From contig NZ_JAGGMM010000003.1 in NCBI RefSeq assembly GCF_017875315.1, positions 124,001 through 188,000 on the forward strand: 64,000 bases of DNA. Reading direction: 5' to 3'. The notes below the pieces were generated by a model that made no database searches, was not told the DNA's origin, and worked only from the letters and a program-made list of their open reading frames with translations. Positions within the stretch are counted from its first letter, which is position 1; every line of letters starts with the position of its first letter. Shown one piece after another: positions 1 through 14,548 of the stretch. Source of the stretch: Methanomicrobium sp. W14 (lineage in GTDB: Archaea > Halobacteriota > Methanomicrobia > Methanomicrobiales > Methanomicrobiaceae). Both the position numbers and the translations under genes were made by a program.

Positions 1-367
1 CGCAGGCCTTGTCTATATGCTCCTGTTTTGGTTCTGAAATAATACTTATCTGGTTCGTAAGCCCCATCAGGACGACGTCAAGGACAGTGAAATTAAACAC
101 AGGATATGTCGACTGCGGTATGTAAGCCACCTTTTTCGCTATCTGCCTGTGATCAAGAGTCTTTATGTCTGCATCATCCAGGTAAACAGAACCCGAATAG
201 TCTTTCAAAAAACCGAGGATGCACCGAAACATCGTGCTTTTGCCGACACCGTTCGGGCCGAGAACTGCGAGGAGATCGCCCTCCTTTGCGGAAAATGAAA
301 CGTCGGACAAGACCTTCCTGGACTTTTTCCGGTACGAAAACGTCAGGTCTTTCACCTCAAGCGTCAT
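1..367 (-). CDS. ABC importer ATP-binding protein, FecE/BtuD type (partial, runs off left edge)
   Basis: Cytoplasmic ATPase of an iron-chelate/cobalamin-type importer, powering the permease encoded immediately upstream. Only the first ~122 residues are inside the window. The Walker A loop GPNGVGKST is at residues 37-45 and the Q-loop (AYIPQ) ends near residue 85. The LSGG signature and Walker B would lie beyond the edge. The ATG at 365-367 overlaps the permease stop codon (ATGA), so the two are translationally coupled. Heme, siderophore or B12 as substrate cannot be told apart from this part. Confidence 0.9.
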   Translation of the reverse strand, partial: MTLEVKDLTFSYRKKSRKVLSDVSFSAKEGDLLAVLGPNGVGKSTMFRCILGFLKDYSGSVYLDDADIKTLDHRQIAKKVAYIPQSTYPVFNFTVLDVVLMGLTNQISIISEPKQEHIDKAC

Positions 368-1416
368 GAACGCCTGCCTCCCGTAATCAGAAGATACGCG
401 AATATAGGTCCTCCGATAAAGGAAGTAAGAATTCCGAGCGGAACCTCGATTGAAGCCATAGTTCTTGCAAAGTCGTCAACCAGAAGAAGAAAACCCCCCC
501 CCATAAAAATTGCGGCAGGAATAATCCTCCTGTAGTCGTAACCGAAGACCATTCTGCAGAAATGCGGTATTACAAGTCCTACCCACCCGATAATCCCGGA
601 AATGGACACAGAGACAGCTGTTATAAGTGTCGCACAGGCAATAACGACAATTCGCAGGAGGGTCGTGTTAATTCCCATGCTCTTCGCCTCGTCCTCGCCG
701 ACTGTAAGGACGTTGAGCCTCCACCGGAGAAGAATCAGGGGTATAAGCCCTGCAATTATTATAGGTCCTGCATAAAATATGTCGTTCATCGTGACCGCTG
801 AAAGGCTTCCCATGAGCCAGTAGGTTATCGCGGGGAGCTGGTCGGTGGTGTCCGCCGTAAGCTTTATGTAGGAAAGGGACGCTGAAAACAGACTTCCGAC
901 AAGAATTCCCGCAAGTACCATGCTCAATGTGGGCGATCCTCTTGCAAGCCTGCTCACGCAGTATGCAACACCAACGGCTGTCATTCCGCCCACAAAGGCA
1001 AAGAGAGTTACGGCACTGCTTCCAAGGTAAAGATATATTGCAAGGGCCGCCCCGAAACCTGCACCGGCCGAAGCTCCCAGTATATCAGGAGATACCAGGG
1101 GGTTTTGGAACATTCCCTGATAGGCTGCACCTGCCGTTGAAAGTGCAGCACCAACAAGGATTGCGGCAAGAATTCTCGGGAGCCGGATACCGCACACAAC
1201 GCTGTTCATCGCGTAGTCCCACGTGTGCTCAAAAGGGGATATATTTACTAAAGAAAGGATGTTTGACGAAAGAATCTTTACAACGTCGTCTATACATATC
1301 GAAAAACGCCCTATGCAAAGAGAAATAAGGGCACAGGCAAAAACAGCGACAAAAAGAATTACAAATCTCAACCTGTAATCAGGAAGTGTCCTTTCGGTTG
1401 CTTCAGGAATATTCAT
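364..1416 (-). CDS. FecCD-family ABC transporter permease (iron-chelate/B12 type)
   Basis: Membrane-spanning subunit of a type II ABC importer (FecCD/BtuC/FhuB family). The 350-residue length is normal for the family, with many hydrophobic segments. Two family stretches are readable: GIRLPRILAAILVGAALS with GMFQNPLVSPDILG after it, and GWVGLVIPHFCRMVFG near residue 275. The stop overlaps the ATPase start in the usual permease-ATPase order. No substrate-binding protein is visible on the upstream side. The substrate is probably an iron chelate or corrinoid; the sequence does not decide. Confidence 0.93.
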   Translation of the reverse strand: MNIPEATERTLPDYRLRFVILFVAVFACALISLCIGRFSICIDDVVKILSSNILSLVNISPFEHTWDYAMNSVVCGIRLPRILAAILVGAALSTAGAAYQGMFQNPLVSPDILGASAGAGFGAALAIYLYLGSSAVTLFAFVGGMTAVGVAYCVSRLARGSPTLSMVLAGILVGSLFSASLSYIKLTADTTDQLPAITYWLMGSLSAVTMNDIFYAGPIIIAGLIPLILLRWRLNVLTVGEDEAKSMGINTTLLRIVVIACATLITAVSVSISGIIGWVGLVIPHFCRMVFGYDYRRIIPAAIFMGGGFLLLVDDFARTMASIEVPLGILTSFIGGPIFAYLLITGGRRS

Positions 1417-1510: not shown

Positions 1511-2137
1511 TTACTCAGATTTGAATTTGAAATTAAGACAGACCCATTTTATCCAGCTTATTACAGTAGAAGCCCTTCTCCTGCATGTCACCATGCTGTA
1601 ATTACTGTAATTATCTTTGATTATTTGCGCCACGGATTCTCTTGTAACTTTCTTTAAATCATAGCCGCACTCTTTCAGAAGCATTGCAGCAGAACGAAAA
1701 ACCGGTTTTCTCATCAGCTGTACCAGTAATATTTTGTTGCGGTACCTCCTCAAAGGGTAATTTTTAACCTCGTTTCCAAGCCTTGTTAAAAGGAAAAAAC
1801 TTTTATAATGAGGGTCCCTCTCCAAAAAGTCCAGGTAAATTGCAGCATTTGCATAATACTCACCCTGCCGCCCGTTAAATTTGAACTGTTCTGAGATCTG
1901 TTCACTTGTTTTCCACTTTTCATCAAAAGAGACCACCATGTCAAGTATTTTATCCAGGTCGTTTGCCTGTGGAAAGGGAACTTTTACCGGATTATGCGGC
2001 CTTTCTTCTATATATAGGAGCATTTCACTAAGATCGACAGGAAGTTCTGATCCTAAGAAGAATGATGTTGTATGGCGTTTTTTTGTAATGGCGCCATTCT
2101 GAGCTGTTCCGGAATTCTTTTTTTGCACGGGATTCAC
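1511..2137 (-). CDS. Unknown ~208-residue protein with a helix-turn-helix-like C-terminal half
   Basis: I do not recognise this family with confidence. The N-terminal ~50 residues are polar and low in conservation cues. From about residue 70 the text (KTSEQISEQFKFNGRQGEYY, then a Y/L/F-rich helix and an RLG turn) resembles small winged-helix modules that accompany restriction or nuclease-type proteins, and a basic C-terminus follows (CRRRAST). The start used is a GTG at 2137; another GTG at 2128 has better spacing from GAGGGG. It lies in the same direction as the transporter with a 94-bp gap, so it may be a separate unit. A DNA-binding role is inference only. Confidence 0.6.
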   Translation of the reverse strand: MNPVQKKNSGTAQNGAITKKRHTTSFFLGSELPVDLSEMLLYIEERPHNPVKVPFPQANDLDKILDMVVSFDEKWKTSEQISEQFKFNGRQGEYYANAAIYLDFLERDPHYKSFFLLTRLGNEVKNYPLRRYRNKILLVQLMRKPVFRSAAMLLKECGYDLKKVTRESVAQIIKDNYSNYSMVTCRRRASTVISWIKWVCLNFKFKSE

Positions 2138-2420
2138 CCCTCTATACCCGGCCAGACCTGGACAGTTTCACTAATTTTGTCGCCCCCTTAAACAGGTGAT
2201 TGATCTATAATCGATTCCATATCAAATAATTCATTTCCGGGTATTGCAGTTACCGGATGTATATTTTTTCAGGGATATTCTTTTTTTAATAATAACCGGC
2301 TTAACTATTATAACGATTTTTAGAGACAGATTTTTTTAGTACATGTAATTCATTGGAATTTGATCTGCAAATCCGTAAAATGCCTTTTTCTTGCTATAAC
2401 GGATCCTGTTAATCAAATAA

Positions 2421-2553
2421 TGTTAATGTTTAATTTTAAATAAATGATCATAATTAAGTAAAAGAATTATCAAAAAGAGATCCTGCGAAGTGGCTCCTCA
2501 CTGACAGCCTGGTCCACTTCTGTGCAGCCGGCCTTAAAGCCGGAGGGGAAAAC
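2421..2553 (+). promoter_or_regulatory. Promoter and conserved structured leader of pilin block A
   Basis: A TATA-like element (TTTAAATA, 2435-2442) is followed by a leader of about 85-110 nt that recurs almost base for base at 8661-8792 in front of block B. Visible structure includes arms AAGTGG (2488-2493)/CCACTT (2514-2519). A second hairpin is CCGGC (2528-2532)/GCCGG (2539-2543), whose right arm runs directly into the SD sequence GGAGGGG (2542-2548) of the first pilin. In block B the first arm changes from A to G and still pairs (G-U). Conservation outside coding sequence suggests a transcribed regulatory leader. Confidence 0.6.
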
Positions 2554-3339
2554 ATGAATTTTCTGGAAAAAAAGCCTTTAAACAATAGCGATAGCGCTGT
2601 ATCGCCGGTTGTCGGCGTGATGCTGATGCTTGTCGTCACCATCATTATTGCAGCGGTTGTAAGCGGGTTTGCCGGAGGTCTTGTCGGGGGGACTGACCAG
2701 AAGGCGCCGCTTCTTACAATGGATGTAAAGATTTCGAACACGGGCACTTATATAGGGAGCGGATTTTCGGCGACCGTTACAAGTGTAAGCGATCCTATCC
2801 GGACAAAGGATATAAAAATAGCGACATCCTGGAAAGTTACCGGTGACACGGGAAGTGTTACAGCAGGAGGGAGCACTGCATCACCGTTTGTTTCAAACGT
2901 AAAAAGCCCTGAGATAACATCAGAAGATAAGTCAACTGATCTTATTGAAAGTTGTGCTCCCTATGGATTTGGTCCGGGCGTGAACTCTTCTTCAGGTGCA
3001 CAGGATTTGGTTAATCCATTCGACAAGCCCGGACAGCAGTTCGGGAATTATTCCCTTGTACAGGGAACGGGTCTTACTGCATACGCTTACGGAAGCAACT
3101 CAGAGAAAGCTGTAGGAGCTTCTCCAAAACATAGTGACACGGGCGGATACGGGGTAGTGACTGACTACACCTACACGAGAGGCGGCTCTTATAAAGACAG
3201 TGCTACTGATGCTGCAACTGCTGTCCTGGGTAACGGATGGGAGAAGTTAAGGACAGGTGACACTGTGAACGTCAAGGTCATTCATATACCGACCGGAAAA
3301 GTGATATTCGAAAAGAATGTCGCGGTTACGGAGGGCTGA
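2554..3339 (+). CDS. Type IV pilin-like protein, slot 1 block A (odd family)
   Basis: Secreted pilin-like subunit with an archaeal class III (PibD/EppA-type) prepilin leader. A short polar N-terminus ending NSDSA is followed by the hydrophobic VSPVVGVMLMLVVTIIIA segment, which would form the pilus core after cleavage just before VSP. The 261-residue protein belongs to the odd-slot family: MDVKISNTG after the core, APYGFGPGV mid-protein, FGNYSLVQGT, then VLGNGWEKLRTGD and a C-terminal PTGKVIF...VTEG. It has one cysteine (SCAPYG). Its SD is GGAGGGG. The final Glu-Gly codons GAG GGC serve as the SD of slot 2. Confidence 0.9.
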   Translation: MNFLEKKPLNNSDSAVSPVVGVMLMLVVTIIIAAVVSGFAGGLVGGTDQKAPLLTMDVKISNTGTYIGSGFSATVTSVSDPIRTKDIKIATSWKVTGDTGSVTAGGSTASPFVSNVKSPEITSEDKSTDLIESCAPYGFGPGVNSSSGAQDLVNPFDKPGQQFGNYSLVQGTGLTAYAYGSNSEKAVGASPKHSDTGGYGVVTDYTYTRGGSYKDSATDAATAVLGNGWEKLRTGDTVNVKVIHIPTGKVIFEKNVAVTEG

Positions 3340-3343
3340 TTTT

Positions 3344-3946
3344 ATGAAAACAAATGACACAGCAGTCTCACCTGTCGTAGGCGTCATGATGATGCTTGTT
3401 GTCACAATTATCATTGCGGCGGTTGTTTCCGCATTTGCGGGAAGTTCCATGAACAGCCAGCAGAAAGCTTCCCAGGCAACAATACAGGGAACTTTCAGCA
3501 TAGGTTCAGGGATGGAGATTACGCATATGGGCGGAGATGCACTTGCAACAAACGATTTGGTCTTTACTGTAAGAAACAGCCCGGTATTCGGACCAAATCT
3601 TGAACAGGTGACTGCGCAGACTCTCGACAAAACCACTATCTACGACGGACGGGGACGTCCTCTTGATTACGGTGACGGGAGCACAAACGCTACATCGTTT
3701 AAATCCGGCGATACCCTGTATATCAACGCATCTTCCATAAAGTGCGATCTTTTGCAGCCCATTGTTGTGCCCGACGATTATACATCTAAACATGGCAGCG
3801 ACGGCTACACATATTCAGGTGAAAAACAGGAGCGTTGGGCGCTGTGCTTCAAAAACAACGACAATATAGGAAACACCTTCTACCTTGATGTAAGCGACAA
3901 GAGCGGAAACCTCATCTGCAGAAGCGAGGTCACGATAACTGCGTGA
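3344..3946 (+). CDS. Type IV pilin-like protein, slot 2 block A (even family)
   Basis: 200-residue pilin-like protein starting MKTNDTA before the hydrophobic VSPVVGVMMMLVVTIIIAAVV core. I chose ATG 3344 rather than a longer upstream frame because the SD GGAGGG (inside the stop end of slot 1) sits 7-8 nt before it and the leader then matches its block B partner. The even-slot family is recognisable by the sequence after the core (QATIQGTFSI, GMEITHMGGDAL), FGPNLEQ, a GDTLYINA strand and the C-terminal YLDVSDKSGNLI. It carries three cysteines (KCDLL, ALCFK, LICRS), unlike most odd-slot pilins. Confidence 0.9.
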   Translation: MKTNDTAVSPVVGVMMMLVVTIIIAAVVSAFAGSSMNSQQKASQATIQGTFSIGSGMEITHMGGDALATNDLVFTVRNSPVFGPNLEQVTAQTLDKTTIYDGRGRPLDYGDGSTNATSFKSGDTLYINASSIKCDLLQPIVVPDDYTSKHGSDGYTYSGEKQERWALCFKNNDNIGNTFYLDVSDKSGNLICRSEVTITA

Positions 3947-3964
3947 TGACAGGGAGAAAAGGAA

Positions 3965-4750
3965 ATGATAATGAAAAATGATTCTGCGGTCTCTCCTGTT
4001 GTGGGTGTTATGCTGATGCTTGTTGTCACAATAATCATTGCAACAGTAGTCAGCGGATTTGCAGGGGGTCTTGTTGCATCAGGCAGCCAGAAGTCCCCCG
4101 CTCTTTCCATGGACGTTAAGATAACAAATTCAGGTACATGGACAGGAAGCGGTTTTTCTGCGGTTGTAACCGGAGTAAGTGAGCCGATTCAGACGAGCGA
4201 CCTTAAGATAGTAACGTCCTGGAAGACAAAAATGAAGTACAATTACGGCACTGCAAACGAGGAACTGGAGCAAATTAAAAACGGGACAATCATTACCGGC
4301 GGGAATACTTCTGCCGGTCGTGTGGCAAATGTTAATGTGATTGAGCCTCTTTCAGCCTCATCGGGACTGAATGTCGCAAGCATAGCACCGTACGGTTCCG
4401 GACTTGCGACTGTCCCGGGAGAACCGGCGGTTTCAGGAAATGCACTGACACAGTACAAGGTACCGGAGTGGCAGTTTGGAAACTACACACTCACAACAGG
4501 CGTAAGCATGAGTGCAAAGCCTTACGGAGAACTGAAAGACGGTACAGGTAAAGCGTATACAAGCGGCTACGGGGTAAAATCTCCATTTGCATACACTTCT
4601 GACAGCAGGGATTATACCGACCCCATGCAGGCAGTTCTTGGATACGGGTGGGAAGAGCTCAGGTCTGGAGATACAGTCTCTGTAAAGGTAGTCTTTGTAC
4701 CTACCGGAAAAACGGTCTTTTCAAAGGACATCCCGGTAACGGAGGGCTAA
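3965..4750 (+). CDS. Type IV pilin-like protein, slot 3 block A (odd family)
   Basis: 261-residue odd-family pilin-like protein. The leader is MIMKNDSA, then VSPVVGVMLMLVVTIIIATVV. Odd-family marks are MDVKITNSGTW, a SIAPYGSGLA stretch, FGNYTLTTGVSMSAK, VLGYGWEELRSGD and a PTGKTVFSKD...VTEG end. It has no cysteine at all, while its block B partner has four. The SD is GGGAG at 3952-3956, and ATG 3971 is an alternative two codons downstream. Its last codons again form the SD GGAGGG for slot 4. Confidence 0.9.
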   Translation: MIMKNDSAVSPVVGVMLMLVVTIIIATVVSGFAGGLVASGSQKSPALSMDVKITNSGTWTGSGFSAVVTGVSEPIQTSDLKIVTSWKTKMKYNYGTANEELEQIKNGTIITGGNTSAGRVANVNVIEPLSASSGLNVASIAPYGSGLATVPGEPAVSGNALTQYKVPEWQFGNYTLTTGVSMSAKPYGELKDGTGKAYTSGYGVKSPFAYTSDSRDYTDPMQAVLGYGWEELRSGDTVSVKVVFVPTGKTVFSKDIPVTEG

Positions 4751-4752
4751 TC

Positions 4753-5373
4753 ATGGCATATAAATCAAATGACAATGCAGTCTCTCCTGTTGTCGGTGTT
4801 ATGCTGATGCTTGTCGTGACAATTATCATTGCAGCGGTTGTCTCCGCTTTTTCAGGCGGACTTACCAGCGGACAGACAAAGGCTCCTCAGGCAAATATCA
4901 AAGGAACATTCAGCATATCCGAAGGGATGACCATCTCACATGCAGGCGGAGATTCTCTTGCGACAAAAGACATCATATTCACGATTCGTGATGGCTCTAC
5001 ATTCGGGCCGAATCTTGAATCATCAACGGCACAGACACTTGATATGACCACGATAAAAGTGAATACGCCTGACAGGGGTGAAGGACCTATGAGAACTATA
5101 GATGGTGCCTTTTATATGACATCTTTCAACTCAGGTGATACGGTAACAATTGATCCTGAAGACTGTACGTGCAATATAATGCAGCCTAATGTTGCGCCTA
5201 CTGATTTTGAAGAAAATGTCGGTGAAGACAACTATACTTACAAAGGAAACCAGACGGCTTCATGGGCTTACTGTATCAGAAATCAGGACAGTATCGGAAA
5301 AAAATTCATCCTTGAAGTAAGTGACACGGGTGGCCACCTGATTTCAAAGACTGATGTTCTGGTAACGGCATGA
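4753..5373 (+). CDS. Type IV pilin-like protein, slot 4 block A (even family)
   Basis: 206-residue even-family pilin-like protein, leader MAYKSNDNA before the core. ATG 4753 follows the slot 3 stop by two bases and uses the SD GGAGGG at 4741-4746. Even-family marks are QANIKGTFSISEGMTISHAG, FGPNLESSTA, a CTCNIMQPNVAP segment, SWAYCIRNQDSIGKKF and an ISKTDVLVTA end. Its three cysteines include a CxC pair, compatible with a disulfide after secretion. An unused upstream frame from 4648 is rejected as it lies inside slot 3. Confidence 0.9.
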   Translation: MAYKSNDNAVSPVVGVMLMLVVTIIIAAVVSAFSGGLTSGQTKAPQANIKGTFSISEGMTISHAGGDSLATKDIIFTIRDGSTFGPNLESSTAQTLDMTTIKVNTPDRGEGPMRTIDGAFYMTSFNSGDTVTIDPEDCTCNIMQPNVAPTDFEENVGEDNYTYKGNQTASWAYCIRNQDSIGKKFILEVSDTGGHLISKTDVLVTA

Positions 5374-5400
5374 GTGCTAATTTTCAAGGAGGGTTAAATA

Positions 5401-6408
5401 TTGAAGATTTCAACAAAGGGAAAACCTGTTTTCAGGCACAGAACTGGCAAAAATGATGAATCTGCTGTGTCTCCTGTCGTAGGTGTTATGCTTATGCTTG
5501 TCGTGACAATCATCATTGCAGCAGTAGTCAGCGGGTTTGCCGGAGGGCTTATTGAAAACGGGGGACACAAGACGCCGTCACTTGCAATGGACGTTCAGAT
5601 AACAAATTCCGGTAATTACAGAGGAAGTGAATTTGCAGCAACTGTTACCGGGGTGAGTGAACCGATCAGTACATCAGATATAAAGATTGTCACTTCCTGG
5701 ACAACGAAGGTAAAAAAGAACAGCTACATACTTGGAAATGGCATATCCATCTACGTACTTGTTGATGGTATATATAAGAAAATTCCAGAAGGGAGTGCAA
5801 TGAAAGGTAAGGGCTGTACCCTCGGCCTGCCGCTTGGGACTGTATATCATGGCGGTGCTGAATGTATTCCGGGTGTTTCAAATTCATATACACATAAAAC
5901 TGCAATGAGCGTTGCTCCATATGGCTTTGGCCCCGGGGTAACTAATACAACTACATCTGATATTGCACCAAGTATGGCTTATGATACAAGCGGTCCGACT
6001 ATTCCAATGTATAACTGGCAGTTTTTTTCAGTAACCCATTTTGGAAACTACAGTCTCGAGCAGGGAACTGTCATGCTTGCTGAAGCAGCCGGACGATGTA
6101 TTTATTATCCAAGAACTGGTGGAGATCCTGATGATTTTATAGGGGGCGGTTATGGCACTTTATCTAAAGGCAAGTTAACTCACCCATATATGTACCAGAG
6201 TGATAAGAGAACTTATACATTATATACCGGCAATGAAACGGTGCCAGTTGATATTATTGCCGACGGGGGAGAGGTCGACGGTATGCAGGCAGTTCTTGGC
6301 TGCGGATGGGAAAACCTCCGGGGAGGAGATGTCGTAAACGTAAAAGTTGTGTATACTCCTTCCGGGAAAACGATCTTCGATCAGGATGTGGTGGTGAGCT
6401 ATTCATGA
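5401..6408 (+). CDS. Type IV pilin-like protein, slot 5 block A (odd family, largest)
   Basis: 335-residue odd-family pilin-like protein with a long basic leader (MKISTKGKPVFRHRTGKNDES) before AVSPVVGVMLMLVV. The start is a TTG at 5401; the SD AAGGAGGG at 5387-5394 lies about 7 nt upstream and no in-frame ATG precedes the core, so TTG decides the start. Odd-family marks are MDVQITNSGNY, APYGFGPGV, FGNYSLEQGTVM and VLGCGWENLRGGD. Insertions in the middle make it the longest in the block. Four cysteines (GCTLGLP, AECIPG, GRCIYY, GCGWE). Its end overlaps slot 6. Confidence 0.88.
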   Translation: MKISTKGKPVFRHRTGKNDESAVSPVVGVMLMLVVTIIIAAVVSGFAGGLIENGGHKTPSLAMDVQITNSGNYRGSEFAATVTGVSEPISTSDIKIVTSWTTKVKKNSYILGNGISIYVLVDGIYKKIPEGSAMKGKGCTLGLPLGTVYHGGAECIPGVSNSYTHKTAMSVAPYGFGPGVTNTTTSDIAPSMAYDTSGPTIPMYNWQFFSVTHFGNYSLEQGTVMLAEAAGRCIYYPRTGGDPDDFIGGGYGTLSKGKLTHPYMYQSDKRTYTLYTGNETVPVDIIADGGEVDGMQAVLGCGWENLRGGDVVNVKVVYTPSGKTIFDQDVVVSYS

Positions 6409-7058
6409 AGGGGAACACTATGAATATCAGAGACAATAATGCCGTTTCACCTGTTGTCGGTGTGATGATGATGCTCGTCGTAACGATTATCATCGCCGCG
6501 GTCGTATCGGCGTTCGGCTCAGGGATGGCCGACAGCCAGTCAGAGGCTCTGCAGGCAAAGATTGGAGCAACATTCAGTGTTTCAGGAGGTATGACAATCA
6601 CTCACGATGGAGGAGACGCTATACCTCTTGATGATCTGGTGTTAATAACAAGCAATGGGAACGGTTTCGGTCCCAACGCAGAGAAAGTCACAACACAAAA
6701 AATTGATTTGACTTTAATTACCGATAAAGACGGCAACCAGGTCTTCTCAACAAACAGCGTAGGTGGCAAATCGTCCTTTAACCCCGGTGACACTCTCTAT
6801 ATCACTCCATACAATTGTACCTGCAGCCTTCTGCAGTATTCTGTTTCCGCACCTTTGTTTGATGATATACATGGTTCAAAATGCGGTGCTCCCTGGGACT
6901 GGGAGAATAATCCAACTACGTACGAGGGGACTAACTGTGATGCCTTATGGATGCTCTGCTTCAGGAACCCGGACAATGTTGGCAAAGTCTTTACATTCAA
7001 AGCAAGTGACAGGAACGGAAACATAATCTCGAAATGCGATGTGAAGATTACGTCATAG
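6405..7058 (+). CDS. Type IV pilin-like protein, slot 6 block A (even family, cysteine-rich)
   Basis: 217-residue even-family pilin-like protein. ATG 6405 overlaps the slot 5 stop (ATGA) and gives an MKG start like the partner at 12505. ATG 6420, preceded by AAGGGG, is an alternative that would shorten the leader by five residues. Even-family marks are AKIGATFSVSGGMTITHDGG, GFGPNAEKVTT, CTCSLLQ, LWMLCFRNPDNVGKVF and CDVKITS. Six cysteines, the most in the block, spread over the surface domain. A gap of nearly 200 bp follows before the thioredoxin-CcdA gene. Confidence 0.88.
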   Translation: MKGNTMNIRDNNAVSPVVGVMMMLVVTIIIAAVVSAFGSGMADSQSEALQAKIGATFSVSGGMTITHDGGDAIPLDDLVLITSNGNGFGPNAEKVTTQKIDLTLITDKDGNQVFSTNSVGGKSSFNPGDTLYITPYNCTCSLLQYSVSAPLFDDIHGSKCGAPWDWENNPTTYEGTNCDALWMLCFRNPDNVGKVFTFKASDRNGNIISKCDVKITS

Positions 7059-7252
7059 AAAGAAATCTGATGAAAAATCAAAAAAACAGGAAAATGCTGA
7101 ATATTCTGCTGCATAAAGGCAATCTGACAAAAATTTATTGCAGATTATATTTTTATGCAGTTTTCATAATTTCCGCCCGTACCTGTTTTGTTCATATGTT
7201 CAACCAAAAGATGAGGATAATTTAATTCACAAAAATACCCGCAGGATTAGTG

Positions 7253-8467
7253 ATGATATTCAAAATAAAAAAAGAATACACTTATTTTTGTTTTTTTCTA
7301 CTTTTTCTTTTGATTCTGGTTTTACCCGTATGTGCAGAAAACAACAGCGGCACAACACTCTCTGCTGACCCGATAACTTCAACCGGTTCAAACGTCACAC
7401 CAGAAGACCTCTTCAAAGACCTCATATCAGATGCAAACACCTCGGTAACGATATTCTACAGCAGCCGGTGCAGTTCATGCGTAAGAGTTCTTCCCGGCCT
7501 GGAGAACCTTTCGGACAGATACCCTGAAATTAAGGTCCGGTATTACGACCTTTACAACTCGACCGAAAACCTGACCCTTCTTTATGAGTTAGGGGCGCAA
7601 TATCACATGCACTATGTCTCTTACCCGATTCTTTTTACAGGTGACACGGTAGTTTTGTCCGGAATGGCTCCCATAACTGAAAACTCGGAATCCGTATTTG
7701 AAGCACTTGACAAAGGACTTATTCCGGACATTGAATATGAAAAAAGGTGGATAGAAGAAGACGAATACAAAGATTCAGCTGATCTTAGAAGTGACATCCC
7801 GGCGGGAATTATTCTTGTCGCATCTGCAGGACTTCTGGACGGAATAAATCCGTGTGCATTTGCAGTCCTTATTTTTCTTTTGATCTCCCTTATGGCAACA
7901 GACTCAGGGAAAAAAGTTCTTATCTCAGGACTTTTCTATACTTTTGCTGTTTTCCTTTTTTACACCCTGGCAGGACTCGGGATAATGAGTATTGTAAATC
8001 TTTCAGGTCTGTCGTTTTATTTCTCAATACTTGCCGGAATTATTGCTATAACGGCCGGTCTTGTAAACATCATCGATTCGTTGCGAAATGACCCCCGGTC
8101 ATCCTTATCGATACCGGCATCTTCAAAAGGAATTATAGGAAAATTCGTTAAAAGGGCAACATTACCCTCTTCATTTATCCTAGGAATAATAGTCGGGATG
8201 TTCGAACTCCCGTGTACAGGAGGCATATACCTCGCCATAATCAGTCTTTTGTCATCGGAGATGACCTTTTCTGAAGGAGTCCCCTATCTTATTCTGTATA
8301 ACATATTTTTCGTAATGCCGCTTTTGCTGATAACCTTTGCAGTTTTCCTCGGGCTTTCGCCGAAATTCGTGGACTCTGCAAGACTAAGATACAGGGGCAA
8401 AGTAAGACTTATTATGGGAATTGTTCTGATTGCAATAGGAATATTTGTAGTGTGGTGGCAGATCTGA
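7253..8467 (+). CDS. Membrane thiol-disulfide protein: thioredoxin domain fused to CcdA/DsbD-like domain (block A)
   Basis: 404-residue membrane protein predicted to pass reducing equivalents across the membrane. An N-terminal signal/anchor segment (residues ~10-28) is followed by an extracytoplasmic thioredoxin-like domain with the redox motif CSSC at 73-76 (FYSSRCSSCVRVLPGL). After it comes a multi-helix CcdA-type domain with the paired family cysteines in INPCAFAVL (C201) and ELPCTGGIYLA (C321). ATG 7253 is preferred over GTG 7250 because the block B copy starts at the same place. The position right after cysteine-containing pilins suggests it services their disulfides (inference). Confidence 0.9.
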   Translation: MIFKIKKEYTYFCFFLLFLLILVLPVCAENNSGTTLSADPITSTGSNVTPEDLFKDLISDANTSVTIFYSSRCSSCVRVLPGLENLSDRYPEIKVRYYDLYNSTENLTLLYELGAQYHMHYVSYPILFTGDTVVLSGMAPITENSESVFEALDKGLIPDIEYEKRWIEEDEYKDSADLRSDIPAGIILVASAGLLDGINPCAFAVLIFLLISLMATDSGKKVLISGLFYTFAVFLFYTLAGLGIMSIVNLSGLSFYFSILAGIIAITAGLVNIIDSLRNDPRSSLSIPASSKGIIGKFVKRATLPSSFILGIIVGMFELPCTGGIYLAIISLLSSEMTFSEGVPYLILYNIFFVMPLLLITFAVFLGLSPKFVDSARLRYRGKVRLIMGIVLIAIGIFVVWWQI

Positions 8468-8472
8468 AAATA

Positions 8473-8492
8473 CAGCTTTTTTCAGGAAGCTG
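8473..8492 (+). terminator. Hairpin with T-run after block A
   Basis: Arms CAGCTT (8473-8478) and AAGCTG (8487-8492) enclose a T-rich loop, with TTTTTT at 8477-8482, just after the stop of the thioredoxin-CcdA gene. T-runs of this kind terminate archaeal transcripts. Confidence 0.4.
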
Positions 8493-8660
8493 GTTAATTA
8501 CGGTTAGATAACTAATCAGATAAACGATTTATTAATTCAATAATCTTCTTATAATCACTTTTTAACTCAAAAACAGATGAACTTTTTCGTGAATATTTTT
8601 GATGGATCTACCCGGGCATATGTCATTTTTTTACCTTAGTATATATAGTTAAATTAGTTA

Positions 8661-8792
8661 TGTTAATATTAAATACTAAATAAATGATCATAGTTAAGTA
8701 TAATAATTATCAAAAACTACCCTGCGGAGTGGCTCCTCACAGACAGTCTGGTCCACTTCTGTGCAGCCGGCCCTAAAGCCGGAGGGGAAAAC
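8661..8792 (+). promoter_or_regulatory. Promoter and conserved structured leader of pilin block B
   Basis: Second copy of the element at 2421-2553. It has a TATA-like CTAAATAA (8675-8682), a TGATCA-containing stretch, the GAGTGG...CCACTT arms, and the CCGGC/GCCGG hairpin abutting the SD GGAGGGG before ATG 8793. Loop and flanking bases differ between copies while the paired bases hold. The rest of the spacer from 8468 to 8660 shows nothing else I can support. Confidence 0.6.
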
Positions 8793-9548
8793 ATGAATCT
8801 TCTGAAAATAAAACCTTTAAAAGATAGCGATAGCGCTGTATCGCCGGTTGTCGGCGTGATGCTGATGCTTGTCGTCACCATCATAATTGCAGCGGTTGTA
8901 AGCGGATTTGCCGGAGGTCTTGTAGACGGGACCGACCAGAACGCACCGCTTCTTACAATGGACGTAAAAATTTCAAATACGGGCTCTTACATAGGAAGCG
9001 GATTTTCGGCGACCGTTACAAGTGTCAGTGATCCTATTCCGACAAAGGATATAAAAATAGCGACATCATGGAAAATTACCGATGATTCCGGAGATGTAAC
9101 ACCAGGAGGGAGCACAACAACACCTCTTGTTACAAACGTAAGATGTCCCAGACTAAACTACAGCTGTGCTCCATACGGGTATGGCCCGGGTGTAATTTCC
9201 TCTTCTGATGAACAATACCTGACAAAAGCATACAAAAACCTTAACCAGCACTTTGGAAACTATTCACTTGTACAGGGAACAGGTCTCATTGCATACCCGT
9301 ACGGCAGTTACCAGGAAGACGCAATCGGTTCATCTGTAGGCATGAGCGACACCGGCGGTTATGGTGTCGTTACCGGCTATACGTACAGTAACGGTGGTTT
9401 GTACTGGAGAAATGCTGATGCTGCACAGTCTGTTCTCGGAACAGGGTGGGAGGCCCTGAGAGTCGGGGATACCGTGAATGTCAAGGTAATCCACATTCCT
9501 ACAGGAAAAGTCATATTTGAAAAAAATGTTGCAGTAACGGAGGGCTAA
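8793..9548 (+). CDS. Type IV pilin-like protein, slot 1 block B (odd family)
   Basis: 251-residue partner of the gene at 2554. The leader MNLLKIKPLKDSDSA and the VSPVVGVMLMLVVTIIIA core are nearly identical, and MDVKISNTGSYIGSGFSAT is also kept. The middle has diverged (ten residues shorter, two cysteines in RCPRLNYSCAPYG instead of one). The C-terminal PTGKVIFEKNVAVTEG is the same, and its GAG GGC codons form the SD of the next gene. The SD is GGAGGGG from the conserved leader. Confidence 0.9.
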   Translation: MNLLKIKPLKDSDSAVSPVVGVMLMLVVTIIIAAVVSGFAGGLVDGTDQNAPLLTMDVKISNTGSYIGSGFSATVTSVSDPIPTKDIKIATSWKITDDSGDVTPGGSTTTPLVTNVRCPRLNYSCAPYGYGPGVISSSDEQYLTKAYKNLNQHFGNYSLVQGTGLIAYPYGSYQEDAIGSSVGMSDTGGYGVVTGYTYSNGGLYWRNADAAQSVLGTGWEALRVGDTVNVKVIHIPTGKVIFEKNVAVTEG

Positions 9549-9550
9549 TA

Positions 9551-10165
9551 ATGTCATTAAAACCGGATGACAATGCAGTCTCACCTGTCGTGGGAGTTAT
9601 GATGATGCTTGTAGTTACAATCATCATAGCGGCGGTAGTTTCAGCTTTTGCAGGCAGTTCGATGGACAGTCACCAGAAAGCTCCCCAGGCAACAATCCAG
9701 GGGTCTTTCAGCATAAGCTCGGGAATGGAGATCACCCACATGGGCGGTGATGCACTTGCAATAAACGATTTGGTCTTTACTGTAAGGAACAGCCCGGTAT
9801 TCGGACCTAACCTTGAACAGGCAACAGCACAGGTACTTGACAAAACAATAATCACCGACAGCCAGGGAAGACTTCTCGATTACGGTGACGGGAGTACAAA
9901 CGTTACTTCGTTTAAATCGGGCGATACCCTGTATATTAATGCTTCTTCAATCAGGTGCGACCTGCTCCAGCCTGTTGTCGTACCTGACGATTATACAGAC
10001 AAACTTGGAAGTGACGGCTACAGCTATACCAGTGACGGCAAATACCAGAACCACTGGGCTTTATGCTTTAAAAACAACGACAATATCGGAAACAACTTTT
10101 ATCTTGATGTAAGCGACAAGAGCGGGAACCTCATATGCAGAAGTGAGGTTACAATCACTGCATAA
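9551..10165 (+). CDS. Type IV pilin-like protein, slot 2 block B (even family)
   Basis: 204-residue partner of the gene at 3344, and one of the most alike pairs. Shared are the VSPVVGVMMMLVVTIIIA core, SSMDSHQKAPQATIQG, GMEITHMGGDALAINDL, FGPNLEQATAQ and the three cysteines in RCDLL, ALCFK and LICRS. ATG 9551 is two bases after the slot 1 stop, with the SD embedded in that gene's last codons. Some substitutions in the central loop are the main difference. Confidence 0.9.
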   Translation: MSLKPDDNAVSPVVGVMMMLVVTIIIAAVVSAFAGSSMDSHQKAPQATIQGSFSISSGMEITHMGGDALAINDLVFTVRNSPVFGPNLEQATAQVLDKTIITDSQGRLLDYGDGSTNVTSFKSGDTLYINASSIRCDLLQPVVVPDDYTDKLGSDGYSYTSDGKYQNHWALCFKNNDNIGNNFYLDVSDKSGNLICRSEVTITA

Positions 10166-10182
10166 ATGCGGGTGATAAACAA

Positions 10183-10926
10183 ATGAGAAAATTTAATGAT
10201 AACGCCGTATCTCCCGTTGTCGGTGTAATGCTGATGCTTGTCGTGACGATTATAATTGCAACCGTTGTGAGCGGATTTGCCGGCGGCCTTGTCGCGGGCG
10301 GCTGCCAGAAGTCTCCGGCACTTGCAATGGACGTTAAAATAACAAATTCAGGCACATGGGTAAACAGCGGTTTTTCCGCAACTGTGACGGGAGTAAGCGA
10401 CCCTGTCAGGACAAGTGATCTCAAAATCGTCACATCATGGAAGAAAAATGATATTACAGGCGGAAATGCGTCTATAGGAAACGTCTTAAATGTTTTTGAG
10501 CCGTCTGTGGCTTCATCCGGCCTGAATGTGGCAAGTATAGCACCATACGGTTTTGGAATGGCGTCAGTCCCGGGAGAACCGGGAATTTCCGGAAGTGCAC
10601 TGACACCTGGCAAAGTACCTGAACGACAATTCGGGAACTACACGCTTTCAAACGGAGTGAGTATGAGTGCACAGCCGTTCGGCGGCAGAAATGACGGGAC
10701 AGGAGACTGTTATAACGATAGTTTTGGTAACCTGTGCGGCTATGGTGTGGTGTCAGATTATTTATACACGGATTTTGACAGCGAAAATTACATAGACCCG
10801 ATGCAGGCCGTACTCGGCTGCGGCTGGGAAAAACTCAGGGCGGGAGACACGGTTTCCGTAAAAGTCGTTTTCGTGCCGAGCGGGAAGACAATATTCTCAA
10901 AGGACGTCACTGTCCTGGAGGGCTGA
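10183..10926 (+). CDS. Type IV pilin-like protein, slot 3 block B (odd family)
   Basis: 247-residue partner of the gene at 3965, leader MRKFNDNA before the core. MDVKITNSGTWVNSGFSAT, SIAPYGFGMASVPGEPG and FGNYTLSNGVSMSAQPFG identify the slot. Unlike the cysteine-free partner it has four cysteines (GGCQKS, GDCYND, NLCGYG, LGCGWE). The end reads SKDVTVLEG and again supplies the SD GGAGGG for slot 4. A GGGTGAT motif lies upstream of ATG 10183. Confidence 0.9.
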   Translation: MRKFNDNAVSPVVGVMLMLVVTIIIATVVSGFAGGLVAGGCQKSPALAMDVKITNSGTWVNSGFSATVTGVSDPVRTSDLKIVTSWKKNDITGGNASIGNVLNVFEPSVASSGLNVASIAPYGFGMASVPGEPGISGSALTPGKVPERQFGNYTLSNGVSMSAQPFGGRNDGTGDCYNDSFGNLCGYGVVSDYLYTDFDSENYIDPMQAVLGCGWEKLRAGDTVSVKVVFVPSGKTIFSKDVTVLEG

Positions 10927-10928
10927 TT

Positions 10929-11540
10929 ATGAGAGAAAACAACTATGCGGTCTCTCCTGTTGTAGGCGTCATGCTGATGCTCGTCGTTACAATCATCATT
11001 GCAGCGGTCGTCTCCGCTTTTTCAGGAGGACTTATGGAAGGGCAGAGTAAGGCCCCGCAGGCAAACATCAGGGGAACTTTCAGTATATCAGAAGGCATGA
11101 CTATCACCCATGCAGGAGGGGATTCCCTTCCTACAAAGAACCTTATATTCACAATCAGGGACGGCCCCACATTCGGCCCGAATCTCGAATCTACAACAGC
11201 AGAGGCACTTGATCTCTCCAAAACCTACGTAAGTACCGATAGAGGCAAAGGCCCTGTAGTGACAAAACAGGGGACATACTTTATGGTCTCCTTCAACCCC
11301 GGGAACATAATAACCGTTGAACCGAAGTACTGCACATGCAACGTTTCCCAGCCCAATGTCGCCCCGACGGACTTTGAGGACAATATCGGGGAGGACGGCT
11401 ACACATACAACGGGACACAGACCGTAGCCTGGGCGCACTGCATAAGAAACCAGGACAGCATTGGCAAGAGCTTCATCCTGGAAGTGAGTGATACGGAAGG
11501 TCACCTGATCTCAAAGAGCGACGTACTGGTAACGGCATGA
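10929..11540 (+). CDS. Type IV pilin-like protein, slot 4 block B (even family)
   Basis: 203-residue partner of the gene at 4753. The leader is only MRENNYA, then VSPVVGVMLMLVVTIIIA. QANIRGTFSISEGMTITHAG, FGPNLESTTAEALD, CTCNVSQPNVAPTDFEDN, AHCIRNQDSIGKSF and SKSDVLVTA are shared. The CxC plus one further cysteine are kept at the same positions, which argues that they are structural. ATG follows the slot 3 stop by two bases. Confidence 0.9.
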   Translation: MRENNYAVSPVVGVMLMLVVTIIIAAVVSAFSGGLMEGQSKAPQANIRGTFSISEGMTITHAGGDSLPTKNLIFTIRDGPTFGPNLESTTAEALDLSKTYVSTDRGKGPVVTKQGTYFMVSFNPGNIITVEPKYCTCNVSQPNVAPTDFEDNIGEDGYTYNGTQTVAWAHCIRNQDSIGKSFILEVSDTEGHLISKSDVLVTA

Positions 11541-11557
11541 CCTATGGAGGATTTATT

Positions 11558-12508
11558 ATGAAAAATGAGAATTATTCTGCAGTCTCTCCTGTTGTAGGCG
11601 TCATGCTGATGCTTGTCGTAACGATTATCATCGCGGCTATTGTAAGCGGGTTCGCAGGAGGACTAATAGAGAGCGACAGCCAGAAGGCCCCTTCTCTTAG
11701 TATGGATGTAAGTATAACGAATTCCGGCACTTACAGGGACAGCGGATTCCACGCAAAAGTAACAGGGGTCAGCGAGCCTATTCCGACAAGTGACCTGAAA
11801 ATTATCACCTCGTGGACGACCACCGTAAAAACAAATACGTATATTGACGTGCTGCATAAGGACGACGCAACGCAATGGGAGGAAGTCGATGGTGCCGGCT
11901 GCGTCCTCGGGCTGCCGCTCGGCACAATCTATCACGGCGGTGCTGAAGTACTTCCGGGTGTCTCCAACACCCGCACTGACAGAACCTACACGAACGGAGG
12001 TGGTGTTGCACCATTCGGATCGGGTACCGGCGTTGAGGGGTCGGTTCCTGTCACAAAGTGGAGTTCCTATCAAAAAACAGCATATTTCGGGAACTATGCC
12101 CTGGAACAGGGGACTGTCCTGACAGCCGAGCCTATCGGTGAATGTAAGGCAAACGATCCTGTGGTCGGGGGTTATCCGGGTAAAGGAAAAATTGGAGGTG
12201 CATTTTTTTATGGCGGTTATGGCACAAATGTAATGTCTGAAGACAGGCAGTTAATTACCAGTTTATTCCACTACCAGTCGGATGGTAAAATCAACGACCC
12301 CTGGAGCAGGTACGTGTATAATGTATATACCGGGGACAAGACCACTCCCGCTGACATCATTGCCGACGGCGGACAGGTCGACAATACCCAGGCAGTGCTT
12401 GGATGCGGGTGGGAGAACCTGCGGACAGGGGATACTGTAAACGTTAAGGTTATCTATATCCCGAGCGGGAAGACAATCTTTGACAAGGACGTGACGGTGA
12501 GCGCATGA
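11558..12508 (+). CDS. Type IV pilin-like protein, slot 5 block B (odd family)
   Basis: 316-residue partner of the TTG-started gene at 5401, here with ATG 11558 and the SD GGAGG at 11546-11550. An upstream in-frame ATG at 11537 overlaps the slot 4 stop but has no SD. MDVSITNSGTYRDSGF, GCVLGLPLGTIYHGGAEVLPG, FGNYALEQGTVLTAEP and VLGCGWENLRTGD match its partner. The block between those anchors is partly different. Three cysteines. Confidence 0.9.
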   Translation: MKNENYSAVSPVVGVMLMLVVTIIIAAIVSGFAGGLIESDSQKAPSLSMDVSITNSGTYRDSGFHAKVTGVSEPIPTSDLKIITSWTTTVKTNTYIDVLHKDDATQWEEVDGAGCVLGLPLGTIYHGGAEVLPGVSNTRTDRTYTNGGGVAPFGSGTGVEGSVPVTKWSSYQKTAYFGNYALEQGTVLTAEPIGECKANDPVVGGYPGKGKIGGAFFYGGYGTNVMSEDRQLITSLFHYQSDGKINDPWSRYVYNVYTGDKTTPADIIADGGQVDNTQAVLGCGWENLRTGDTVNVKVIYIPSGKTIFDKDVTVSA

Positions 12509-13125
12509 AAGGAGCAAAAATCGATGCGGTCTCACCAGTTGTCGGTGTGATGCTCATGCTTGTGGTTACGATAATAATAGCTGCTGTAGTCTCGGCATTT
12601 GCCGGAGGTCTGGCGCATACCCAGTCAAAGGCCCCGCAGGCAACAATAAGTGCAACATTCAGCGTCTCGCAGGGCATGACAATCACCCATTGCGGAGGGG
12701 AGGCGATACCTCTTGACAGTCTCGTCTTCACAACCCAGAACGGAGACGGCTTCGGGCCGAACACAGAATCGCTTACCACAGAGGAAATCAACAGGAGCAT
12801 AATCTCCGACAAAAACGGGGACCTGGTGTTCCTGAACAATTCCGGCGGAAAGTCCTCGTTTAACCCCGGAGACACCCTCTACATTTCAGCCTATAACTGC
12901 ACGGCCCCGATTCTTCAGCCTGACGTGGGATTATCAATACGTGGCTGGGACTGGAAGAAAAAGCCTACTTATTACAAGTGTAAAGGCGGCGGCTATACCT
13001 GCTATGCATCTCTTTGGTCTCTCTGCTACCGCAACCCGAATAATGTTGGCAAGACCTTTATCCTCCAGACCGGTGACAGGTCGGGAAACACAATCTCGAC
13101 GTGCGGGGTGAAGATTACGTCATAG
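12505..13125 (+). CDS. Type IV pilin-like protein, slot 6 block B (even family, cysteine-rich)
   Basis: 206-residue partner of the gene at 6405. ATG overlaps the slot 5 stop (ATGA). The leader MKGAKIDA is the shortest of the set. QATISATFSVSQGMTITHCG, DGFGPNTESLTTEEI, SSFNPGDTLYISAYNC, LWSLCYRNPNNVGKTF and CGVKITS match slot 6. Six cysteines as in the partner, but not all at the same positions (THCGG is new, the CxC is reduced to NCT). The following ~200-bp spacer keeps some similarity to the block A spacer but shows no gene. Confidence 0.9.
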   Translation: MKGAKIDAVSPVVGVMLMLVVTIIIAAVVSAFAGGLAHTQSKAPQATISATFSVSQGMTITHCGGEAIPLDSLVFTTQNGDGFGPNTESLTTEEINRSIISDKNGDLVFLNNSGGKSSFNPGDTLYISAYNCTAPILQPDVGLSIRGWDWKKKPTYYKCKGGGYTCYASLWSLCYRNPNNVGKTFILQTGDRSGNTISTCGVKITS

Positions 13126-13324
13126 AAAAATAAGATGTAAAGTCAAAAAAAACAGGAAAAGGCTAAAACTATCTGCTGCATAAAAAGAATCCGACAGAAA
13201 ATTGCCAGGATTTCCTTTTTTATACAGCTTTGATAATTCAAAGCCTGTACCCGTTTTATTCATATGTTTCTGCCAAAAATGATCAAAATCCAATCCGTTA
13301 AGACAACAATTAGAATTATTTAAG

Positions 13325-14548
13325 ATGCTCTCCAAAATAAAAAAAGAATATACTTTTTTTTGCAGATTTTGCCTATTTATACTGTTTTTTTCATACCTGG
13401 TTTTTCCTGTATGCGCAGAAGACAAAAACGTCGCAATGAATTTTTCCGGCCCGGCGGTCTTTGCCGGTTCAAACGTCACACCAGAAGACCTCTTCAAAGA
13501 CCTCATACCAGATGCAAACACTACAGTGACAGTATTTTACAGCAGCCGGTGCAGTTCATGCGTAAGAGTTCTTCCCGGCCTGGAGAACCTTTCGGACAGA
13601 TACCCTGAAATTAAGGTCCGGTATTACGACCTTTACAACTCGACCGAAAACCTGACCCTTCTTTATGAGTTCGGGGCGCAATATCACATGCACTATGTCT
13701 CTTACCCGATTCTTTTTACAGGTGACACGGTAGTTTTGTCCGGAATGGCTCCCATAACTGAAAACTCGGAATCCGTATTTGAAGCACTTGACAAAGGACT
13801 TATTCCGGACATTGAATATGAAAAAAGGTGGATAGAAGAAGACAAATACGAAAATTCAACTGATCTTAGAAGTGACATCCCGGCGGGAATTATTCTTGTC
13901 GCATCTGCAGGACTTATTGACGGAATAAATCCGTGTGCATTTGCAGTCCTTGTCTTCCTGATTATATCCCTTCTATCATCAGGTCATGGAAAAAAAGTTC
14001 TTTTCTCAGGACTTTTCTACACACTGGCGGTATTTGTCTTCTATTTTTTTGCAGGACTTGGAATAATGAACTTTGTCAGGTTTACAGGCTACTCCTACAT
14101 ATTTTCACTGTTTGCGGGAATTGTCGCAATCACGGCCGGACTTATAAACATCCTCGATTCACTGAAAAAAGACACACGGGCATCTTTATCGATACCCGCA
14201 TCTTCAAAAGGGATCATAGGGAAGTTCATTAATAAGGCAACATTACCTTCATCTTTTTTACTGGGAATAATTGTCGGAATGTTTGAACTCCCGTGTACGG
14301 GCGGCATATACCTTGCAATAATCAGCCTTTTGTCATCGGAAATGACCTTTACTGAAGGTGTCCCTTATCTTCTTTTATACAATCTATTCTTCGTTATGCC
14401 TCTGCTCATGATAACCTTTGCAGTAGGATTCGGACTTTCACCGAAATTCGTGGACTCTGCAAGACTCAGGTACAGGAACAAAATAAGATTTGCAATGGGA
14501 ATCGCCCTGATATTAATAGGAATATTTGTAGTCTGGTGGCAGATATGA
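13325..14548 (+). CDS. Membrane thiol-disulfide protein: thioredoxin domain fused to CcdA/DsbD-like domain (block B)
   Basis: 407-residue copy of the gene at 7253 with the same order: signal/anchor, thioredoxin fold with CSSC, and a CcdA-type membrane domain with INPCAFAVL and ELPCTGGIYLA. Roughly the central 400 bp (13540-13950) is almost identical at DNA level to block A, while the signal peptide region and the membrane domain have many differences, including silent ones. No clear SD precedes ATG 13325. Retention of all four redox cysteines in both copies indicates both are active. Confidence 0.9.
   Translation: MLSKIKKEYTFFCRFCLFILFFSYLVFPVCAEDKNVAMNFSGPAVFAGSNVTPEDLFKDLIPDANTTVTVFYSSRCSSCVRVLPGLENLSDRYPEIKVRYYDLYNSTENLTLLYEFGAQYHMHYVSYPILFTGDTVVLSGMAPITENSESVFEALDKGLIPDIEYEKRWIEEDKYENSTDLRSDIPAGIILVASAGLIDGINPCAFAVLVFLIISLLSSGHGKKVLFSGLFYTLAVFVFYFFAGLGIMNFVRFTGYSYIFSLFAGIVAITAGLINILDSLKKDTRASLSIPASSKGIIGKFINKATLPSSFLLGIIVGMFELPCTGGIYLAIISLLSSEMTFTEGVPYLLLYNLFFVMPLLMITFAVGFGLSPKFVDSARLRYRNKIRFAMGIALILIGIFVVWWQI

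Follow-up and report, generated by a model that had tools for sequence, protein, structure and literature searches.

Tandem arrays of paired type IV pilin genes and their metal-importer neighbourhood in Methanomicrobium sp. W14

Why would a methanogen carry, one after the other, two long sets of pilin genes that each end in a gene resembling a thiol-reductant transporter? The question is raised by the window analysed here, i.e. the whole 64,000-nucleotide stretch of Methanomicrobium sp. W14 (contig NZ_JAGGMM010000003.1, positions 124,001 to 188,000), from a 2.54-Mb genome of the order Methanomicrobiales labelled G000 in locus names. Between positions 2554 and 14548, two collinear blocks lie on the same strand, each consisting of three pairs of two alternating pilin kinds, A and B, followed by a gene, here called T, for a thioredoxin domain fused to a CcdA-like membrane domain. 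Similar A-B pairs are found beside importer genes in many genomes. The reading that we favour, though only tentatively, is that the blocks encode importer-coupled surface pilins which acquire a metal or metal cofactor, the pilin thiols being handled by T.

All 14 open reading frames are intact and ordered, seven per block (block 1, 2554-8467; block 2, 8793-14548; window coordinates). A first-pass annotation had described each block as a leader, six pilin genes and a thioredoxin-CcdA fusion, and this layout was borne out. The six pilin genes are present as described, but they form three A-B pairs rather than six independent slots; likewise, a conserved leader precedes both blocks, but the conservation starts farther upstream, at a 20-bp palindrome. 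The features are as follows (aa, amino acids).

2408-2427: operator-like palindrome RTTAA-N10-TTAAY, 20 bp, 126 bp upstream of block 1
2489-2553, forward strand: leader 1, a couple of small hairpins (compensatory changes at 5 of 14 base pairs), its end being the ribosome-binding site
2554-3339, forward strand: block 1 pilin A1, 261 aa
3344-3946, forward strand: block 1 pilin B1, 200 aa
3965-4750, forward strand: block 1 pilin A2, 261 aa
4753-5373, forward strand: block 1 pilin B2, 206 aa
5401-6408, forward strand: block 1 pilin A3, up to 335 aa, with a non-ATG start whose exact position is uncertain
6420-7058, forward strand: block 1 pilin B3, about 212 aa, six ectodomain cysteines
7250-8467, forward strand: block 1 T, secreted thioredoxin domain (CSSC) and CcdA-like membrane domain (NPCA, ELPCTGG)
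7457-7762, forward strand: gene-conversion tract in the block 1 T, one mismatch with 13538-13843
8648-8667: operator-like palindrome ahead of block 2
8728-8792, forward strand: leader 2, hairpins as in leader 1
8793-9548, forward strand: block 2 pilin A1
9551-10165, forward strand: block 2 pilin B1
10183-10926, forward strand: block 2 pilin A2
10929-11540, forward strand: block 2 pilin B2
11537-12508, forward strand: block 2 pilin A3
12505-13125, forward strand: block 2 pilin B3
13325-14548, forward strand: block 2 T, thioredoxin-CcdA-like fusion
364-1416, reverse strand: FecCD-type importer permease, heading the cluster divergent from block 1
1511-2137, reverse strand: DUF7226 protein, divergent from block 1 and also beside it in Methanolacinia

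All six block 1 pilins match Pfam Pilin_N (PF07790; E 1e-16 to 1e-21). A Pilin_N search of the genome, which yielded about 50 pilin genes, recovered all twelve window pilins, with those of block 2 above cut-off; the latter also match NCBIfam archaellin/type IV pilin N-terminal models, some slightly below cut-off. The window pilins, as Pilin_N matches above cut-off, have the class III-type hydrophobic N-terminus. Beyond it, the ectodomains of A (about 250-335 aa in length) and B (about 200 aa) are only 13-23% identical, A resembling A and B resembling B. The B profile is matched by the solved archaeal pilins 8fj5, 8gi2 and 9myg. Predicted structures of A and B consist of a helix and strands at low confidence (predicted local distance difference test, pLDDT, 68 and 53). 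With the weak A model, a fold search returned mainly archaeal filaments and archaellins at the top (best match, the archaeal filament 8rey, E 1e-3), and with the weak B model it returned no informative match.

Concerning the pairing, 74 adjacent same-strand pairs with A followed by B were counted in 36 loci, versus five unpaired A and one unpaired B. An exception to the A-B rule is found at L158 (1540-3289, genome G194), where two A-type pilins stand in tandem without B.

A-B loci are genetically associated with nutrient importers, which is the most telling pointer to what the pilins do. The association was counted over 37 A-B loci in 27 genomes, found only via the B pilin, with FecCD permeases or SBP_bac_5 (NikA-like) proteins taken as importer genes: 25 of the 37 loci have such a gene within 10 kb (1.8 expected from random placement) and 33 within 15 kb (2.4 expected). 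In the window genome, six of the nine FecCD genes are about 3 kb or less from a Pilin_N gene. The neighbours include FecCD, Peripla_BP_2, Opp/Nik permeases and a NikA-like binding protein, together with CobN/BchH, ChlD/CobT-like, FmdE, CobW and S-adenosylmethionine methyltransferase genes. In the window, the cluster divergent from block 1 comprises FecCD, an ATPase, a CobW-type GTPase, an ATP-binding cassette ATPase and a protein of the DUF364/DUF4213 kind ('putative heavy-metal chelation'). At L160 and L161, in family f8 outside the order, A-B-T2SSE-T2SSF runs divergently from a CobN-ATPase-FecCD-FecB cluster, while at L153 a complete NikA-OppB-OppC-ATPase-ATPase cluster is directly followed by an orthologous three-pair array and two methyltransferases. 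This metal-importer context was missed by the earlier annotation, made from the sequence only.

The same neighbourhood could be expected of pili for adhesion or biofilm formation, e.g. for attachment to minerals or partner cells, that are merely co-regulated with metal uptake and do not bind the imported metal. PilA-like pilins of archaea are main subunits in adhesion, and it is common for pilin genes to stand alone or in tandem and to be served by motors in trans (PMC4858521); several distinct subunits would also suit an adhesive filament. The linkage to importer, chelatase and methyltransferase genes nevertheless holds over many families, whereas other pilin clusters of the window genome (C1:1019-1031 kb; C2:229-237 kb) have no FecCD gene near them, and we consider adhesion a credible but rather unlikely explanation.

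Two further observations concern these neighbourhoods. More distant pilin pairs, A-like then B-like, each adjoin a FecB-FecCD-ATPase cluster at L002 (5147-6615) and L006 (5574-6832). A conserved short secreted protein (about 145-196 aa) is encoded between FecB and CobN or the pilins at L160 (7979-8416), L161 (8014-8451) and L149 (13506-14027); it gave no Pfam match where tested, and is a candidate ligand-binding partner.

The upstream palindrome, RTTAA-N10-TTAAY, is present ahead of both window blocks and also in the leaders of three out of four blocks in Methanolacinia. It was counted in 600 kb of the window genome. As the pattern had been defined on the block leaders and was then counted in sister loci, the following figures are only partly independent and the element is a candidate: nine sites in the 67 kb of A-B loci (0.5 expected), all intergenic and 53-228 bp ahead of gene starts, versus four in 533 kb of other stretches (5.7 expected). 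Of the nine sites, two precede the window blocks and two further A-B operons; the others lie ahead of FecB, FecCD, a ParA/CooC-like ATPase, a T gene from a different A-B locus and a fwdD-fwdB fusion. In this last case (formylmethanofuran dehydrogenase; G000:C3 about 103-104 kb, L001 1-804), the palindrome lies 91 bp upstream, which hints at Mo/W or at a switch of isoenzymes. Outside the A-B loci, a close match was seen at L174 12508 (G000:C2 about 162.5 kb), upstream of an uncharacterised secreted protein. The DUF7226 protein is a possible regulator. As for the leader itself, a known riboswitch was rejected, an Rfam search of window positions 2150-8900 having given no match; its first hairpin is resembled by one in L001 near 7525-7554.

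How, then, did two blocks arise? Across the blocks, ectodomain identity per slot is 70% for A1, 84% for B1, 67% for A2, 72% for B2, 54% for A3 and 59% for B3, and the two T proteins are 81% identical over their whole length, while different slots of the same class reach 35-49%; the similarity claimed earlier, higher between corresponding slots of the two blocks than between slots within one, is thus what the alignments give. A tree with slots clustering by block had been named beforehand as grounds for refuting this. In the tree of 82 A-B pairs they cluster by slot, pairs 1, 2 and 3 of all arrays forming three clades (support 99, 100 and 100) of nine members each: both window blocks, both blocks of Methanolacinia petrolearia (G037) and of a Methanolacinia congener (G060), and the arrays of G088, from another family, and of G194 and G195, from a third. 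The three-pair array is older than the two-block state, because its slot clades are common to arrays in two other families.

A search for syntenic blocks in other Methanomicrobiales found the same two-block locus in both Methanolacinia genomes, between the same FecCD/DUF7226 and fmd genes; in other families, the arrays are single, and two genomes have them without an adjoining T. The proposal that a diversified unit was duplicated whole holds but is incomplete, the two-block locus being shared by the two Methanolacinia genomes and single arrays being present in other families. A simple two-copy duplication was rejected, since the slot trees (A1, B1 and A2 only partly resolved) show three block versions, two per genome: alpha (block 1 in the window and in G037), beta (block 2 in the window, block 1 in G060) and gamma (block 2 in both G060 and G037). 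When the window genus is compared with Methanolacinia, synonymous divergence (dS) is about 0.9-2.1 for flanking genes and 1.2-2.0 for alpha genes, but only 0.5-0.7 for the beta B2-A3-B3 genes (W2 versus Y1). This low value indicates an exchange of the B2-A3-B3 segment between genera, and a strict ancestral alpha-beta-gamma array with later losses, although possible, is for that reason not required. T genes cluster by genome. In the window, a 306-bp tract of the two T genes (7457-7762 and 13538-13843) differs by one base, although the genes are otherwise about 81% identical at the protein level; this is a recent gene conversion. The T of G037 block 2 (L122, about 13650-14300) is a deletion remnant, with its N- and C-terminal pieces in different frames and the six pilins intact.

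The ratio of nonsynonymous to synonymous divergence (dN/dS) is 0.09-0.25 per gene between the two window blocks and 0.05-0.25 throughout the comparisons. Such values mean purifying selection, which maintains both blocks, in agreement with the first-pass annotation. The further suggestion made there, two related filaments or switching between them, is conjectural: the block versions, three in number, have persisted while undergoing gene conversion and passing between genera, and nothing observed points to switching. The low ratios also bear on another explanation, namely a surface-variant locus shaped by viruses or grazers, in which alpha, beta and gamma would be kept and exchanged since altered exposed pilins escape binding. 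Three long-lived block versions at two per genome, the low dS of beta B2-A3-B3 relative to flanking genes and the position of A3 and B3 as the most divergent slots would all suit it, and in Sulfolobus islandicus pilins are reported to be tied to virus resistance (PMC7217056). It is nonetheless improbable given the low dN/dS throughout; moreover, no silent cassettes or switch elements were seen, and the importer linkage would be left unexplained.

The role of T was approached through its motifs and the pilin cysteines. CSSC/CSAC, NPCA and ELPCTGG are invariant in four T paralogues, which have both the thioredoxin CxxC and the membrane-domain cysteines. T resembles DsbD/CcdA thiol-reductant transporters in joining a CxxC-bearing thioredoxin domain to a membrane domain that has several spans and two conserved cysteines; it differs in that its pilin linkage occurs in only a few genomes and in that curated models were not reached (DsbD PRK00293, E 0.027, 13 bits vs. 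a cut-off of 330), which is why 'CcdA-like' is the proper term. In Pfam, SfLAP was matched exactly at cut-off. Where a locus has T, 18 of its 20 B pilins counted over all such loci have at least two ectodomain cysteines, vs. 8 of 31 elsewhere (Fisher p 8e-6, uncorrected for relatedness). This link may only reflect slot ancestry, because the orthologous arrays of L153 and L154, without T beside them, keep their cysteines; both genomes hold T elsewhere. The same arrays led us to reject T as an obligatory partner, and they make it less likely that an adjoining T alone accounts for the cysteines of the pilins. T is an add-on and does not belong to the core of the array, as the single arrays of two genomes have no T adjoining; it may plausibly serve the pilins as a reductant or an isomerase.

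T might instead feed reductant through the pilin cysteines to an extracellular acceptor or mineral, the pili forming a redox filament. T does stand beside Cys-rich pilins in the two block-bearing genera and in G088, and levels of importers and surface proteins shift in methanogens using pyrite (PMC10846266). However, orthologous arrays exist without adjoining T, M. petrolearia block 2 has lost T with all six pilins intact, and neither A nor B was seen to have a cofactor motif, though no search aimed at such motifs was made; we hold this explanation to be very improbable.

We return to the favoured reading, importer-coupled pilins for a metal or cofactor. The architecture, the orthology of slots, the block versions, purifying selection, the linkage to importers and the common upstream palindrome are results; from these we infer assembly, ligand binding, metal regulation and the substrate of T as follows. 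Each block would form a multi-subunit archaeal type IV surface structure of three A-B pairs, the pair being a widespread Methanomicrobiales module that would work with high-affinity metal or metal-cofactor importers, either of the FecBCD/BtuCDF type, often with a CobN-like chelatase, or of the Nik/Opp type. A metal-responsive regulator at the palindrome would induce the blocks together with importer genes. The prepilins would be processed and then assembled by a VirB11/TadC-type motor encoded elsewhere, such as that at C3:501-504 kb, next to another A-B pair; of seven T2SSE matches in the window genome, none is inside the locus, and the one at C3:501 kb adjoins this pair. Ectodomains, differing among alpha, beta and gamma, would capture metal, either as a complex or on a surface that bears it, and hand it on to the importer's binding protein, while T would carry reducing equivalents across the membrane, reducing or reshuffling cysteines of the Cys-rich B (and A3) ectodomains. 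As ligands, Mo or W are candidates from the fwdD-fwdB palindrome, tetrapyrroles are suggested by CobN and the BtuC-like permeases, and nickel by the NikA-like proteins.

Several points weigh against this reading. The linked importers differ in type, so that one ligand cannot explain all of them. The idea that pilin ectodomain type tracks importer type was dropped on finding only partial clustering (25 label changes vs. 38 in shuffles), and the three-pair array, found with Fec-type and also with Nik-type importers, counts against it. Near the complete array of G088 there is neither a FecCD nor a NikA-type gene. The analysis identified neither a ligand nor a metal-binding site, and the structure models are weak; the gene neighbours might be co-regulated for adhesion, not uptake. 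The partial independence of the palindrome counts and the cysteines kept in arrays without adjoining T belong here as well.

Concerning known systems, the locus shares with euryarchaeal type IV pili (Haloferax PilA/PilB3; PMC4858521) the Pilin_N N-terminus, several paralogous pilins encoded away from the motor operon and VirB11/TadC-type motors in the genome, and differs in its strict A-B pairing, three-pair array, importer/chelatase linkage and adjoining T. The text of that 2016 census of archaeal pili mentions neither transporters nor iron. The Sulfolobus bindosome, built from sugar-binding proteins with class III signal peptides (PMC4471445), is similar in concept, the idea being that a surface assembly resembling type IV pilins takes part in nutrient uptake. 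In the bindosome, it is the solute-binding proteins that bear the pilin signal; here, pilins and FecB/NikA-type binding proteins are separate genes, and the importers are of the metal/cofactor type. Family profile searches of the block pilins gave no solute-binding match for A or B, and identity with the bindosome was rejected because the pilins have no solute-binding domain. The earlier statement that no pilus system of this composition is known agrees with the open-access literature searched, in which no paper on such a composition and nothing relevant to a link of archaeal pilins with CobN, CcdA or metal uptake was found; an earlier description elsewhere is possible. Pili with a metal-capture role are not known so far.

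As a more speculative proposal, on which we are doubtful, A-B dual-pilin modules may be an undescribed class of importer-coupled type IV filaments capturing metal complexes or metal cofactors on the surface of archaea, the window holding an enlarged form of six subunits that has a thiol reductant to itself and is maintained in exchangeable block versions. The locus is present in a cultured type strain, M. petrolearia. Methanogens need much Fe, Ni, Co and Mo/W, metals that sulfides often lock away, and how these are gathered at the cell surface is poorly known. The recurrent link of a defined pilin pair with metal/cofactor importers provides a direct, testable hypothesis, and suggests what some of the very numerous pilin genes in Methanomicrobiales may be for.

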